From Dehalococcoidales bacterium (GTDB lineage: Bacteria; Chloroflexota; Dehalococcoidia; Dehalococcoidales; Fen-1064), in assembly GCA_016783135.1 (NCBI GenBank), contig JADHXC010000001.1, forward strand, positions 1 to 64,000: a DNA stretch of 64,000 nucleotides, given 5' to 3'. The notes beneath the pieces were generated by a model, which ran no database searches, was not told the origin of the DNA, and saw only the letters and a list, made by a program, of their open reading frames with translations. Below are positions 14,605 to 21,397 of this stretch, in pieces (positions within the stretch are counted from its first letter, which is position 1; every line of letters begins with the position of its first letter). Position numbers and translations under genes: made by a program.

Positions 14605-15420
14605 CTACTTCTTCAGCACCTCGTAGAGGCGGGCCACGTTCATGCGTTGGAGCATTGGTCCCATTGCCTCATTGCTGGATTCCATCGGATAACGGTCCAG
14701 CAGTGATATCTTATCCTGGGCCTCTTCAAGGGTCATGCCTTTGCTGATGGCGTCACTGACGGCATCAATCCAGGCCTGTATCATGGCCTTCATCTCCGGG
14801 ATGTAGCTCGGAGTGCAGACACTACCATGCCCCGGCACCAGGAAATCGGCTTCCAGTTGGCTTAGTCGGTCCAGGGAATCCAGCCATTGGTAGGGGACCG
14901 CCTGATGTAAGAATGGATGTACTTTGTGGAAGATGTTGTCTGAGGTGAAGACCACACGCTCTTCGGGTATGTAGACCGCTACCTGGTATGGAGTGTGACC
15001 GGGCTGGTTGATAAGCTGGAAGGTGTGGTTGCCGACATAGAGTGTGAGCCGTTCGGAGAGGGTGATTGTCGGCGGATGATAGCTGAACCCTTCCAGCAGG
15101 GGCAGGTTCTCCGGGGCCGTCTGCTGGAGACGCTCTTTCAACTGGTCTATCGAGGAAGCCAGTATCGCCTCTCTGGTGCCTTCGTGGGCAATCACGGTGC
15201 CTTCGAAGAAGTGATTGCCGGTGAAGTGGTCGCCATGCGGTTCGGTGTTAATCAGGTAACGGACCGGGCCGTGCCTGGCGATTTCCTCCCGCCACTTCAC
15301 CGCATCAACCGGCATCTGCGGTGTGTCTATCATCACCACGCCATCGCTGGTGACGACAAAACCGGGGTTGCACCCCCGGAACCCGGTCTCGGCATAGATA
15401 TTATCGGTTACCTTCTGCAT
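14605..15420 (-). CDS. MBL-fold metallo-hydrolase with altered metal motif
   Basis: A 271-residue metallo-beta-lactamase-fold protein. The canonical HxHxDH motif reads EPHGDH (in LINTEPHGDHFTGN, about residue 60), so the first His is Glu. Later ligands are present: VPGHGS (about residue 196) and a preceding His in NQPGHTPYQ. It could be a hydrolase of a thioester or lactone or an altered one-metal enzyme; function is unknown. A strong RBS AAGGAGGAG precedes ATG 15420. The gene starts only 27 bp after the TAG that ends the extended URO-D frame, as expected for one operon. Confidence 0.82.
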   Translation of the reverse strand: MQKVTDNIYAETGFRGCNPGFVVTSDGVVMIDTPQMPVDAVKWREEIARHGPVRYLINTEPHGDHFTGNHFFEGTVIAHEGTREAILASSIDQLKERLQQTAPENLPLLEGFSYHPPTITLSERLTLYVGNHTFQLINQPGHTPYQVAVYIPEERVVFTSDNIFHKVHPFLHQAVPYQWLDSLDRLSQLEADFLVPGHGSVCTPSYIPEMKAMIQAWIDAVSDAISKGMTLEEAQDKISLLDRYPMESSNEAMGPMLQRMNVARLYEVLKK

Positions 15421-15447: not shown

Positions 15448-16617
15448 CTACCATCCGGTTGGCCGGTAGTTCTTTGCTGTATCAACCAGGACCTTTAGAT
15501 TCTCAAACTGAGCATCTACGGGCACTCCTCAGCCAACTCCCATCATGAAGCCACCGCCTTCCGCTACCACATCGATGAGTTTCTTGCAGTATTCCTCTAC
15601 CTCGTCACACGTACCTAGAGACAGCAAGGAAGGAGATACATCGCCCACTATGCACATATGGCCTCTGAGTATCTCCTTGGCCTTGAAGATATCCGTCTTG
15701 CTATCCAGCTGGATGAAACACTTACCCTGCGGCAGTTCCTTGAGGTAGGGCATATTCAGTGTCCAGTCGGAATCAAAGTGAAGGATGGGCGTGATTCCCT
15801 CGGCAATAAAGGCCTCGACCATTTTCTTCATATAGGGGAACTCGAAGCGTTCGAAAATATTCAACGGGTATATGAAGCCTCCGCCGCGTTCAAGAATCAG
15901 TTGCCGGGTGGGAATCCCGTAGGGGCTGGATATCTCGGAAGCCCTGGTGTCTGCGATGGCTATCTCAATAAGGTCGTCAATCATTGCGTCCATGACGGCC
16001 TCTACTTTGTCCGGTATGCGATGAAGGTCCATGGTGAATTTCATCATGGTGCGGCTACAGGACAGCATCATCAAGGGTGTGAAAACGTTGCCCCCGATGT
16101 ATGTGGGGATACCTTTATCCTGCCAGGCTTGAGTACCCTTCTTACCTGCTTCCAGCTCCCTTATCTCCCGGGTCTCGATACGGGTATGGTATCCCTCCGG
16201 TTCCCAGCCACGGAAATGGGGGTAGAAGTCGTATATGAAGTTCTTCCAGCCGGTATCGATGATGCGGTCGTAGTCCTGCTCGGTCAGGGTCTCCGTCTCG
16301 TCCCACTGAATTATCTCATCTTCTCCGATATCCCTGCCGGGTACCTTAACCTTCATGGGGGCTTCTACCAGGTCGCGTACCCGGGTGGTATTACCGCCAC
16401 TATTGACTACGTCCCAGCCCCCCAGTTCTTCAAAGACCTCGCGCATTGCCCGCGTGCCCAGCGTTCTGTCGCGGAAGTACTCTCCCTGGGTGATACCCTT
16501 GTAGCGACAGGGAAACTTGTAGTCCATGGCCAGTGATATCGGGACCCGGTCCCCTTTTTCACAATTAATGGCGGCACGTACTCTTGCTAACCTGCTGTCT
16601 ATGGTATCTTCTGCCAC
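15448..16617 (-). CDS. URO-D family corrinoid methyltransferase, candidate selenoprotein (in-frame TGA at 15529-15531)
   Basis: A member of the uroporphyrinogen-decarboxylase/MtaA superfamily, whose non-haem members move methyl groups to or from corrinoid proteins or CoM-like thiols. The standard frame ends at TGA 15529-15531 after 362 codons (GGFMMGVG). Translation past the TGA gives 26 more codons ending at TAG 15448: GVPVDAQFEN...TAKNYRP. These align without gaps with the end of the neighbouring paralogue (GCTVAADCTYDN...TGRNYYP), and the TGA falls exactly on the paralogue's Cys. In MtaA-type enzymes the equivalent Cys is a zinc ligand. A hairpin with a GUU loop follows the TGA, as expected of a bacterial SECIS. 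Alternatives are a recent nonsense mutation or a sequencing error. HFDSDW replaces the HxCG metal motif of MtaA. Confidence 0.75.
15496..15518 (-). promoter_or_regulatory. Candidate bacterial SECIS hairpin
   Basis: In RNA sense the stem is UAGAU, G, CUCA, then a GUU loop, then UGAG, A, AUCUA: nine base pairs with one G-A mismatch. It begins 10 nt after the TGA at 15529-15531, and the loop G is 20 nt downstream of it. Bacterial SECIS elements have an apical loop beginning with G or GU roughly 16-37 nt after the UGA. The fit is by eye; no folding was computed. Confidence 0.5.
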
Positions 16618-16663: not shown

Positions 16664-17809
16664 CTAGCCGTGAGGATAGTAGTTCCTGCCGGTATCAACC
16701 ATTGCCTTGAAGTTATCATATGTGCAATCGGCGGCCACCGTACACCCGGAACTGAGGATGAAGCCGGTGTCCTTGCCGACGACATCGATGAGCTGTTTAC
16801 AGTACTCCTCCATCTCTCCGGGAGTGCCAAGAGCCTGCAGTCCTGCCGGTACGTCTCCGGCGATACACATGTGGTCCTTCAGTATCTCCTTAGCCTTGAA
16901 GATGTCCGTCTTGCTATCAAGTTCGCAGATGCACATCCTGGCGGGGAGGTCAAGGAGGTAGGGGAGGTTGAGAGTCCAGTCCTGGTCAAAGTGGAGGTCG
17001 ACAATCATTCCTTCAGCGACGAAAGCCTCGACCATCTTCTTTACATAAGGATATTCAAAACGCTCAAACACCTTGAGAGGGAAGTAGAAGCAGCCGCCCC
17101 TCTCCAGTACCAGGAATGCCCCCGGTACCCCCGTAAGCCTGGCTACTTCTATCGTACTCTCGATGAGGTCATCAACCATGGCATCCATAACCGCTTCTAC
17201 CTTGTCCGGAATCCGGTGGATGTCAAGGGCGAAGGCAGTCATTGACCGCGACGTGGAAAGCGCCATCAGTGGCGAGTTTACCGAGGCACCGACCAGTGTC
17301 GGCAGACCCCGTTCTTCCCAGGTGGCAATCTCTTTCCGGTACTGGGCAATCTGGCGCTCCGCCCAGGCGATTGATTTCTCAAGAGGGAATGGACTGGTCC
17401 TCTCACGGACTTCATCTGCCCATTTCCGGTAGCCGATTTCAATAATGCGGTCATAGTCCTCAATTGTCATCGATTCAGTCTCGATATACTGCGGTGGGGA
17501 ATCTGCGGGAAGCCCCTTGCCCGGGTATATCATCCTCCCCGTCCGACCGGCCGCCGGGTGCCCGGGGTTAGGACTCTGGCTGTAGCCTGGAAGGATGAAG
17601 CCGTCCCAGCCCCCGACATCATCGAACAGGTCTACCATCGCCGGCCAGCCTTTACCACGATAATCGGCAAAGGCTTCAGCGAGAGTCAGACCCTTATGAC
17701 GGGCGGGAAACATGACATCCAGAAGCGGGGCCACCGGTACCCGGTCGTATGGCTCCAGCTTGACCGCTGCCCATATCCTCTCCCTGGGGGTCATCGTCTC
17801 TTTTACCAT
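16664..17809 (-). CDS. URO-D family corrinoid methyltransferase
   Basis: A 381-residue paralogue of the adjacent URO-D protein, with the same order of motifs: TPRERIWAAVKLEPYDRVP at the N-terminus, LHFDQDWTLNLP near residue 270, and the C-terminal SSGCTVAADC with the conserved Cys at the position where the neighbour has TGA. Family knowledge suggests methyl transfer between a methylated substrate or folate system and a corrinoid protein. ATG 17809 directly abuts the corrinoid-protein stop, so the two are translationally coupled. The pair may act on different substrates or form a heteromer. Confidence 0.85.
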   Translation of the reverse strand: MVKETMTPRERIWAAVKLEPYDRVPVAPLLDVMFPARHKGLTLAEAFADYRGKGWPAMVDLFDDVGGWDGFILPGYSQSPNPGHPAAGRTGRMIYPGKGLPADSPPQYIETESMTIEDYDRIIEIGYRKWADEVRERTSPFPLEKSIAWAERQIAQYRKEIATWEERGLPTLVGASVNSPLMALSTSRSMTAFALDIHRIPDKVEAVMDAMVDDLIESTIEVARLTGVPGAFLVLERGGCFYFPLKVFERFEYPYVKKMVEAFVAEGMIVDLHFDQDWTLNLPYLLDLPARMCICELDSKTDIFKAKEILKDHMCIAGDVPAGLQALGTPGEMEEYCKQLIDVVGKDTGFILSSGCTVAADCTYDNFKAMVDTGRNYYPHG

Positions 17810-18425
17810 CTACTTCATCTCCTCGATGAAACGCTTGCAGATTTCCACTCCCTCTATGCCGTCATCGGTGAAGGCATCGGCCCCGGTGTGCCTTCGGACA
17901 AGCTCGGTGACGACGCCACCGCCAACGATTGTCCTGACCCTGTCACGTAATCCCGCTGCCTTGACCGCCTCTACCGTCTGCTTCATTGAATCGAAAGACG
18001 GAGTCAGCAGTCCGGACATTCCCAGGATAGGGGCGCCGGTCTCAATCAGCTTGTCGACAAGTGCCTGAGGCTCGACGTCTATCCCCAGGTCATACACCTC
18101 GACCCCGGCCCCTTTCAGGAGTACGGCAACGATATCCTTGCCGATATTGTGAATATCACCTTTTACCGTAGCGAGGACAATCCTGGCCCTGTGGTCGGCC
18201 TCTGCACCAGCCTGGAGGTGCGGCTCGATGAGCTTCATCGATTCCTTGAATATCTCCCCGGAGACAATGAGTTCGCTGAGGAAATAATCTCCACTCTTGT
18301 ACCGTTCCCCGACGGCATTCGTTGAGAATCGATAGCGGGTCGGTACCGGCATCGAGTTGCTCGCGGACCAGTCGGTATACTTCTTCCTCGCTCAGTTCCG
18401 CCAACATATCAGCTATTCCTGCCAT
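17810..18425 (-). pseudogene. Corrinoid (methyl-cobalamin) protein, frameshifted
   Basis: A methyltransferase cognate corrinoid protein (MtaC/MtbC type), broken by a frameshift near 18315-18325. The N-terminal cap reads from ATG 18425 (MAGIADMLAELSEEEVY...DPLSILNEC). The rest reads in another frame (NAVGERYKSGDYFLSELI) through the B12-binding domain with DIHNIGKD, whose His is the lower cobalt ligand, to TAG 17810. Homologues have about six more residues, of the form R-x-G-M-x-x, at the junction. The repeated GCCGT at the junction suggests a 17-bp deletion between short repeats. An internal ATG at 18352 could give a 180-residue product lacking most of the cap domain. An assembly error is possible. 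Confidence 0.75.
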
Positions 18426-18692: not shown

Positions 18693-19532
18693 ATGCACAC
18701 CATACTATCAAGCGCTACGAGAGAAGTGGTTATCGGTGATGACCAACCAACGGTACTGATTGGCGAGCGCATAAACCCAACAGGTAGAAAGAAACTGGCG
18801 GCGGCACTTGAGACAGGCGATATGGAAGTGCTCCGCCGGGAGGCAGTGGCCCAGGTTGAGGCCGGAGCGGATATACTGGATGTGAACGTCGGTTCGTCCG
18901 GTGTCGATGAAGTGGGTCTGCTGGCACAGGTAGTGCAGGCAGTAGCTGAGACGGTAGACGTCCCTTTGAGCCTGGACAGCGATAACCCAGGGGCACTGGA
19001 AGCTGCTCTCAAGGTGTACCATGGCAAGCCGATTATCAACTCGGTGACGGGCCAGGAGAGTTCACTGGCGGAGGTCCTTCCACTGGTCAAGAGATACGAT
19101 GCGGCCGTAATCGCACTGACGATGGACGACGATGGTATACCGGCGGACCCTGCCCGCCGTGTTGTTATCGCTCACAAGATTATAGAGAGGGCGGAAAGCC
19201 TGGGGATTCCCCGTGAGGACGTGATAATCGATTGCCTGGTGCTAACAGTAGCCACGGAGAGCGATGCCGCTCTGGTAACGCTTGAGGCTGTGCGGCGAGT
19301 AAAAGAGGAACTGGGAGTTAACCAGACCCTGGGGGCGAGCAACATTTCCTACGGCCTTCCGGAACGCAATGTGCTCAACGGTGCCTTTCTGGCGATGGCA
19401 ATCAATGCCGGAGTGACCTGCCCCACGGTCAATGCTGCCCGGGTGCGCCAGGCGGTACTGGCTACAGACCTGCTCCTCGGGCGTGACCGCTATGCCCGGC
19501 GTTATATCAAGGACTATCGCCAGCGACGGTGA
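18693..19532 (+). CDS. Methyltetrahydrofolate:corrinoid methyltransferase (pterin-binding, AcsE/MtgA-like)
   Basis: A TIM-barrel pterin-binding protein of 279 residues. Family motifs are GERINPTG (residues about 24-31), DILDVNVGSSG, LSLDSDNPGALEAAL, INSVTGQESS and GASNISYGLPER, which match AcsE, MtgA and the folate domain of MetH rather than dihydropteroate synthase. The likely reaction moves a methyl group between tetrahydrofolate and the corrinoid protein. It is divergent from the corrinoid-protein/URO-D operon, which makes a complete methyl-transfer route from substrate to folate and on to a Wood-Ljungdahl-type pathway. ATG 18693 follows GGGGAAGAAGGAGAG. Confidence 0.88.
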   Translation: MHTILSSATREVVIGDDQPTVLIGERINPTGRKKLAAALETGDMEVLRREAVAQVEAGADILDVNVGSSGVDEVGLLAQVVQAVAETVDVPLSLDSDNPGALEAALKVYHGKPIINSVTGQESSLAEVLPLVKRYDAAVIALTMDDDGIPADPARRVVIAHKIIERAESLGIPREDVIIDCLVLTVATESDAALVTLEAVRRVKEELGVNQTLGASNISYGLPERNVLNGAFLAMAINAGVTCPTVNAARVRQAVLATDLLLGRDRYARRYIKDYRQRR

Positions 19533-19782: not shown

Positions 19783-21195
19783 ATGGAGAGAAATGAAATC
19801 GGATACATGTCGGCGGTGGATGTGGCAGCCGCAATAAGAGAGAAAAGGCTGTCCCCTTTGGAGGTCGTGGATGCCATCCTGTCTCGCATCGAAGAAGTGA
19901 ACCCTCGTGTCAACGCCTATTGCACTATTGTGGCGGAGAGTGCCCGTAAACGTGCGCGTGAGGCCGAAGCGGAGGTTATCAAGGGTGCGGAGCTGGGGCC
20001 ACTTCACGGTGTCCCGGTGTCTATCAAGGACCTGATGTTCACCAAGGGTGTACGGACGACGTTTGGCTCCAAAATCTACGAAAACCTGGTGCCGGAGGAA
20101 GACGACATCGTTGTTGAGCGCCTACAGGAGGCCGGGGCAATCATGCTGGGAAAGACCAACACCCCGGAGTTCGGCTTCATGGGCGTAACCGATAACTTGT
20201 TGTTCGGACCGACACGTAATCCCTGGAACCTGGGGCGTCATGCCGGGGGTTCCAGTGGTGGTGCCGCTGCTGCCGTGGCCGCGGGTATGGGACCGCTGGC
20301 GACCGGCAGTGACGGTGGCGGTTCGATACGCATACCGAGTAGTTTCTGCGGGGTCTTCGGCCTGAAACCATCGTATGGTCGTGTGCCCAGGGGTCCGGGC
20401 TTCCCCGACTGGCAGACTCTATCCCACTCCGGTCCCATCACACGAACAGTAGCCGATGCGGCGTTGATGATGGAGGTTATCGCCGGCAGGGACGATAGAG
20501 ACCGCCGTTCTCTGCCGGATACGGGACTGCGTTACCTGCCCCTGGCTGATAAGGACTTGAAGGGGATGAAGATAGGCTGGACACCTGACCTGGGGTATGC
20601 TGCTGTTGACCCTGAGGTAGTGGCGGGGCTGACCGCGGCTGTGGGTGTCTTCGAATCTCTGGGTGCTGATGTCGAGCTGGCGACACTGGACATTGAGCCT
20701 ACGGGTCTGACTTTTGCTGTGATATGGGCAGTCACTTTCGCGAGTAAATACGCGGACATGCTGGGCGAGTGGCGGGAGCAGATGAATCCGAATCTGGTGG
20801 CTATGATTGAGCGCGGCAAGGATGTACTGGCTACAGACTACGCCCGGGCGGCCACTGCCAGGGAAGAGTTCTGGCGGGCGATTCGGCCGGTCTTTGAGAA
20901 GTACGACCTGCTCCTGACGCCGGCAACCGCCGTACCTGCGTTCGAGGTCGACAAGTTCGAGGTGGCCGAGATTGGCGGCGTCAAGGGTACCCCGACAGTA
21001 GACTGGACACCTTTCACCCATCCGTTCAACTTCACCGGGCAGCCGGCTGCCTCCGTTCCCTGCGGCTGGACGGACGAAGGTTTACCGATTGGGCTCCAGA
21101 TAGTGGGACGGCGATTTGACGATGCCGGTGTGCTGCGGGCATCCGCTGCTTTCGAACGTGCCGCCCCGTGGGCTGACCGGCGGCCTGGAGTGTAG
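19783..21195 (+). CDS. Amidase (amidase-signature family)
   Basis: A 470-residue amidase-signature enzyme that hydrolyses amide bonds. The Ser-cisSer-Lys triad can be placed: Lys in VSIKDLMFTKG (about residue 77), the Gly/Ser-rich signature GGSSGGAAAAVAAGM (about 152-166) with GSDGGGSIRIP following. It could be a free amidase or GatA-like, but no gatB or gatC lies nearby, which favours a catabolic amidase. RBS GGAGGG is 7 bases before ATG 19783. The MITE-like element immediately upstream may supply its promoter. Confidence 0.9.
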   Translation: MERNEIGYMSAVDVAAAIREKRLSPLEVVDAILSRIEEVNPRVNAYCTIVAESARKRAREAEAEVIKGAELGPLHGVPVSIKDLMFTKGVRTTFGSKIYENLVPEEDDIVVERLQEAGAIMLGKTNTPEFGFMGVTDNLLFGPTRNPWNLGRHAGGSSGGAAAAVAAGMGPLATGSDGGGSIRIPSSFCGVFGLKPSYGRVPRGPGFPDWQTLSHSGPITRTVADAALMMEVIAGRDDRDRRSLPDTGLRYLPLADKDLKGMKIGWTPDLGYAAVDPEVVAGLTAAVGVFESLGADVELATLDIEPTGLTFAVIWAVTFASKYADMLGEWREQMNPNLVAMIERGKDVLATDYARAATAREEFWRAIRPVFEKYDLLLTPATAVPAFEVDKFEVAEIGGVKGTPTVDWTPFTHPFNFTGQPAASVPCGWTDEGLPIGLQIVGRRFDDAGVLRASAAFERAAPWADRRPGV

Positions 21196-21397
21196 TGACG
21201 CTATCTTCTATCTCCGCCTCCTTGCCTTCAGGCAGGAAGGTTAATTTATGGATGCTGATAACGTATTCTCCTATCTGTGCATGTATGTGGTGATAGCGCA
21301 ACCGCAGGGTTGCACAACAGTTTACCAGGACGATACGCTGTGATACAATTCATCAAATGCACCGCCGGATGAGCTGAGAGAAAAGGAGGGACGTGGC

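Follow-up and report, generated by a model that had tools for sequence, protein, structure and literature searches.

Evidence for a selenocysteine-containing URO-D-family methyltransferase in a genus of Dehalococcoidales

In the URO-D superfamily, S-methyltransferases use a His-Cys-Cys set of ligands, whereas in O-methyltransferases one or both Cys residues are replaced by carboxylates or by non-ligands (PMC10418091). The C-terminal Gly-Cys motif of the methylcobamide:CoM methyltransferase MtaA contributes a Cys that, according to published work, is a zinc ligand. The chloromethane methyltransferase CdmB contains no zinc (PMC13222342). CdmB and the URO-D O-demethylases OdmB, VdmB, and MtvB share a three-part layout with a corrinoid protein and a MeTr component, and none of them has been reported to contain selenocysteine (Sec) in the literature we searched. 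The Mlp enzymes of the type 1 mlp gene clusters are also URO-D corrinoid methyltransferases and often occur in Sec-using genomes. They retain His-Cys-Cys ligands, their clusters are tied to methyl-selenium metabolism (PMC10418091), and they are not described as selenoproteins in the sections of that paper bearing on them. The gene analyzed here shares the predicted fold of MtaA/MtbA, the three-part layout of CdmB and the O-demethylases, and the Sec-using background of Mlp, but differs from MtaA, CdmB, and Mlp at the residues aligned with the zinc site.

The window, a 64,000-nucleotide stretch of a Dehalococcoidales genome, carries on its minus strand a URO-D-family methyltransferase gene (15451-16617) that we propose is read through one TGA. 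The frame opens with GTG at 16617, meets the TGA at 15531-15529 after 362 residues, continues for 26 codons, and ends in TAG at 15450-15448, the proposed true stop codon; the ATG of the next gene, at 15420, lies 27 nt past it. The read-through product would have 389 residues with Sec363. The TGA column corresponds to the Cys of SSGCTVAAD, encoded by TGT, in the upstream URO-D paralogue (16664-17809, minus strand), and the tails of the two proteins align without gaps. In an alignment of 16 rows, in which U was entered as C for the TGA forms, Gly362 was invariant and column 363 was Cys in every row except the TGA forms, so that the in-frame TGA meets the criterion of alignment with a conserved Cys of its homologues. 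The sequence-only reading had claimed a TGA at a conserved Cys position, an ungapped tail of 26 codons, a TAG, and a 27-nt distance to the next gene, and all of these were confirmed. We consider it very likely that the gene encodes a selenoprotein in which the TGA is read as Sec. The sequence facts, the Sec machinery, the conservation, and the fold prediction are shown; the presence of Sec in the protein is inferred, and there is no protein-level evidence for it. One alternative is a genuine short protein: translation would truly end at the TGA, and the 362-residue form would be functional, perhaps accompanied by some low-level readthrough. In its favor, the predicted fold indicates that truncation would cost the protein no more than its last 27 residues, largely a single helix. 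Against it, the loss would include the position of the invariant Cys as well as the conserved tail, and the tail remains under constraint (see below), which leaves this explanation very unlikely.

The window's genome (G000) is a draft of 2.28 Mb in 87 contigs, with a completeness of 95.5% and a contamination of 7.4%. It meets the criterion for bacterial selenoproteins that SelA, SelB, tRNA-Sec, and SelD be encoded. The selA and selB genes and tRNA-Sec (anticodon UCA; 73.6 bits, gathering score 47) are all located on one contig, C84, whereas selD is on C50 and contains an in-frame TGA early in the gene. Beside selA, selB, and tRNA-Sec on C84 lies the formate dehydrogenase gene fdhA (L086 3247-5694), in which a single frame-breaking TGA directly precedes HSPTVASL; we take this to be the usual Sec site of formate dehydrogenase. 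Because selA, selB, tRNA-Sec, and selD occur together with a formate dehydrogenase gene that has its own in-frame TGA, we concluded that UGA is decoded as Sec in this genome; a lack of selB and selC, which would have refuted the selenoprotein interpretation, was not found. A second alternative, that UGA is decoded as another residue such as Cys or Trp, could draw on the Cys found at this column in the homologues. It is all but excluded by the complete Sec machinery, by the use of TGA in the known Sec genes of the genome, and by the ordinary genes that also end in TGA. A genome-wide reassignment of UGA was likewise rejected, as TGA is an ordinary stop elsewhere in the genome.

A bSECIS-like hairpin, TAGATGCTCA-GTT-TGAGAATCTA, follows the TGA on the minus strand (15496-15518). 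The stem of 9 bp, the GUU loop, and the distance of 20 nt from the TGA to the loop G that had been noted initially were confirmed, with one G.A mismatch in addition to the 9 pairs. The hairpin was identical in the three species of the genus examined, and their alignment showed no change from the TGA through past the hairpin end. Scored with our own script in place of bSECISearch, the element met the criterion of a bSECIS-like stem-loop soon after the UGA with a G in a small apical loop. By itself the hairpin is weak evidence, because about 4.3% of TGA triplets picked arbitrarily from the window had an equally good hairpin score; given this background, the score alone was rejected as proof of Sec. 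The hairpin is nevertheless unusual for the peptide that it encodes. Among 5000 synonymous recodings with the peptide fixed, 0.46% reached the hairpin score and 0 reached the observed core-stem energy, and the score was attained by none of the 39 Cys homologues checked. By eye, Gln (CAG) in the TGA genes takes the place of the Lys (AAG or AAA) seen in most Cys homologues of the subfamily, a change that appears to build the top of the hairpin stem. In the mechanism that we propose, tRNA-Sec and SelB would decode UGA363 as Sec, directed by this hairpin just downstream.

The same TGA was found at the same column in both other species examined of the genus (G001 and G002), with a protein identity of 95-97%. 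Pairwise divergence before the TGA was 0.15-0.17 at synonymous and 0.009-0.021 at nonsynonymous sites among the three species. After the TGA, each pair differed by 0-1 nonsynonymous versus 1-4 synonymous changes, a thin test with few sites in 26 codons. These values indicate purifying selection, with pN well below pS before the TGA and, on few sites, after it. The criterion that the TGA be kept in other species with downstream coding constraint was thus met, although in only three species of one genus, so that the depth of conservation supporting the selenoprotein reading is limited. TGA/Cys alternation among homologues, a check proposed by the sequence-only reading, was found at this one column, and the refuting outcome of homologues all with Cys and no TGA was not obtained, as both sister species also have the TGA. 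A TGC or TGT in read data at 15529-15531 would also have refuted the reading; the separate assemblies of the three species all show TGA there, and raw reads were not included. Reads aside, none of the refuting outcomes was encountered, and the selenoprotein interpretation is supported.

The main alternative raised at the outset was a nonsense mutation in a decaying operon, with the gene ending at codon 362 and the tail a relict. The caution behind it, a frameshift in the neighboring corrinoid (B12-binding) protein gene (17810-18425, minus strand), was confirmed. This gene has a 17-bp deletion in the window's genome only, among the three species; in both sister species, the part of it that was available is uninterrupted. 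In addition, the body of a RACo-like corrinoid activase gene is missing from the window's genome, where a remnant of 29 codons persists (21173-21259, minus strand). These damaged local genes favor decay and count against the selenoprotein reading. In contrast, the identical TGA is present in two other species, and in G002 the corrinoid gene and the RACo-type activase gene beside the TGA gene are both intact. The hairpin is fixed across the three species. In the 26-codon tail that follows the TGA, no pair differs by more than 1 amino acid, compared with a synonymous divergence of about 15% in the gene. Because the TGA is common to all three species, it predates the damage to the corrinoid and activase genes. 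Decay is therefore disfavored by the constraint after the TGA and by the intact neighbors in G002, and we regard it as very unlikely. The 17-bp deletion lies between two similar short stretches (CGCCAGGGAATGG and CGTCGGGGAGCGG in the relatives), and it may have arisen by slippage or be an artifact of assembly. The window's genome has a further RACo gene on contig C16 and a further corrinoid gene at the end of contig C65, and these could possibly serve in place of the damaged copies.

Outside the TGA group, the closest relatives are a copy on C65 of the same genome (68% identity) and homologues in G007 (65%) and G196 (63%). They belong to the same subfamily and share the invariant column, but they have TGC or TGT there and no comparable hairpin. 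All other close homologues also have Cys (TGC/TGT). Among remote homologues (under about 30%), the majority carry Ala, Ser, Thr, or Val at this position, and a single one retains Cys. In the tree, the TGA clade was nested within the Cys clade with 100/100 support, so that Cys is most simply ancestral, and the change to Sec is most simply a single event on the branch leading to this Dehalococcoidales genus, with a Cys isoform remaining on another contig. No additional TGA forms were found outside the genus among 393 class and 400 phylum genomes (evenly drawn; metagenome contigs not covered). A selD gene with a TGA was present in both G001 and G002, and selB in G002. The draft G001 genome (88% complete) had no selB match at a 1e-60 cut-off, and G007 and G009, both with Cys homologues, had neither a selB nor a selD match. 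G196 has selB and selD yet retains Cys, so that the Sec machinery does not force Sec at column 363. The G196 genome and the missing selB match in G001 both count against the selenoprotein reading. The G196 selD (L089) contains one TGA and one TAA within the match; the TAA is unexplained.

The protein matched the PF01208 (URO-D superfamily) profile above the curated cut-off (57 bits versus 23.9). The 389-residue product is predicted to fold as a URO-D TIM barrel (pLDDT 87.6), and the model resembled UROD (Z about 27) and MtaA (4ay7; Z 25.5). The C-terminal Gly-Cys of MtaA aligned with Gly362-Sec363, with a weak score. The MtaA-type criterion for a zinc site, HxC plus a C-terminal Cys, was not met: the protein has H280-x-D282 (HFD in place of HxC, with Asp282 invariant in the subfamily) and Sec363. 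Scores for the NCBIfam models TIGR01463, NF040654, and NF041608 were far below the curated cut-offs (52.5 versus 235.4, 25.8 versus 400, and 46.9 versus 600), and membership in the MtaA/MtbA/CmuA families was rejected. The sequence-only reading had taken the Cys to be an MtaA-type zinc ligand, which would put Sec at a metal site. This claim is partly supported, by the MtaA alignment and the fold similarity only, and it is weakened by Asp in place of the first MtaA-type Cys ligand. A zinc link is further opposed by CdmB, the closest relative in sequence with a solved structure (E 8e-26), which is zinc-free and lacks the aligned His, Asp, and Cys residues. On balance, we lean toward a mixed metal site in which Sec363, in place of the Cys aligned with the MtaA motif, would probably join His280 and Asp282; metal binding itself is inferred, the MtaA alignment is weak, and no distances were measured.

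The gene lies beside the corrinoid protein gene and a gene for a pterin-binding (MeTr-type) methyltransferase (18693-19532, plus strand), which is a candidate for the second methyltransferase of this system; G002 additionally has a RACo-type activase gene there. Judging from these neighbors, the most likely role of the enzyme would be methyl transfer between the corrinoid protein and a methylated substrate of unknown identity, supplying tetrahydrofolate. A demethylase role with transfer of the methyl group to tetrahydrofolate fits the corrinoid and MeTr-type neighbors and is modestly favored, although the reaction is inferred and the substrate unknown.

Neither URO-D nor uroporphyrinogen appears among the entries of a 2026 inventory of prokaryotic selenoproteins, and the methyltransferases listed there are of other kinds. 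A URO-D selenoprotein was not mentioned in the main text of the further selenoprotein literature searched, and NCBIfam has no selenoprotein model for the protein. Within the published lists searched, the Sec-containing URO-D methyltransferase thus appears to be a new selenoprotein family with an unusual site. Sec is a known metal ligand in formate dehydrogenase and NiFeSe hydrogenase, and the family would therefore be a new one of a known kind. A bolder reading, for and against which we see comparable grounds, is that this is the first selenoprotein family of the URO-D superfamily, corrinoid-linked, in which Sec would bind the metal directly (His-Asp-Sec) and tune the transfer of methyl groups to or from the substrate, with a Cys isozyme retained in the same genome. 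If true, the large URO-D/MtaA superfamily would join the selenoproteins, with Sec at a position where S-methyltransferases of this fold hold zinc, and would offer a direct test of the gain of selenium over sulfur in corrinoid methyl transfer. Annotation truncates such enzymes: this gene would be called as a 362-residue protein without the key residue.

The C65 copy, the counterpart of the Sec gene at 68% identity, is one of three Cys paralogues encoded in a second URO-D cluster of the same genome (L082 4957-9638). Between the URO-D paralogues on C65, we observed by eye a CobW/COG0523-like GTPase gene with a GCICC motif (L082 6256-7185), whose product, judged by eye only, might be a metal chaperone for URO-D enzymes.
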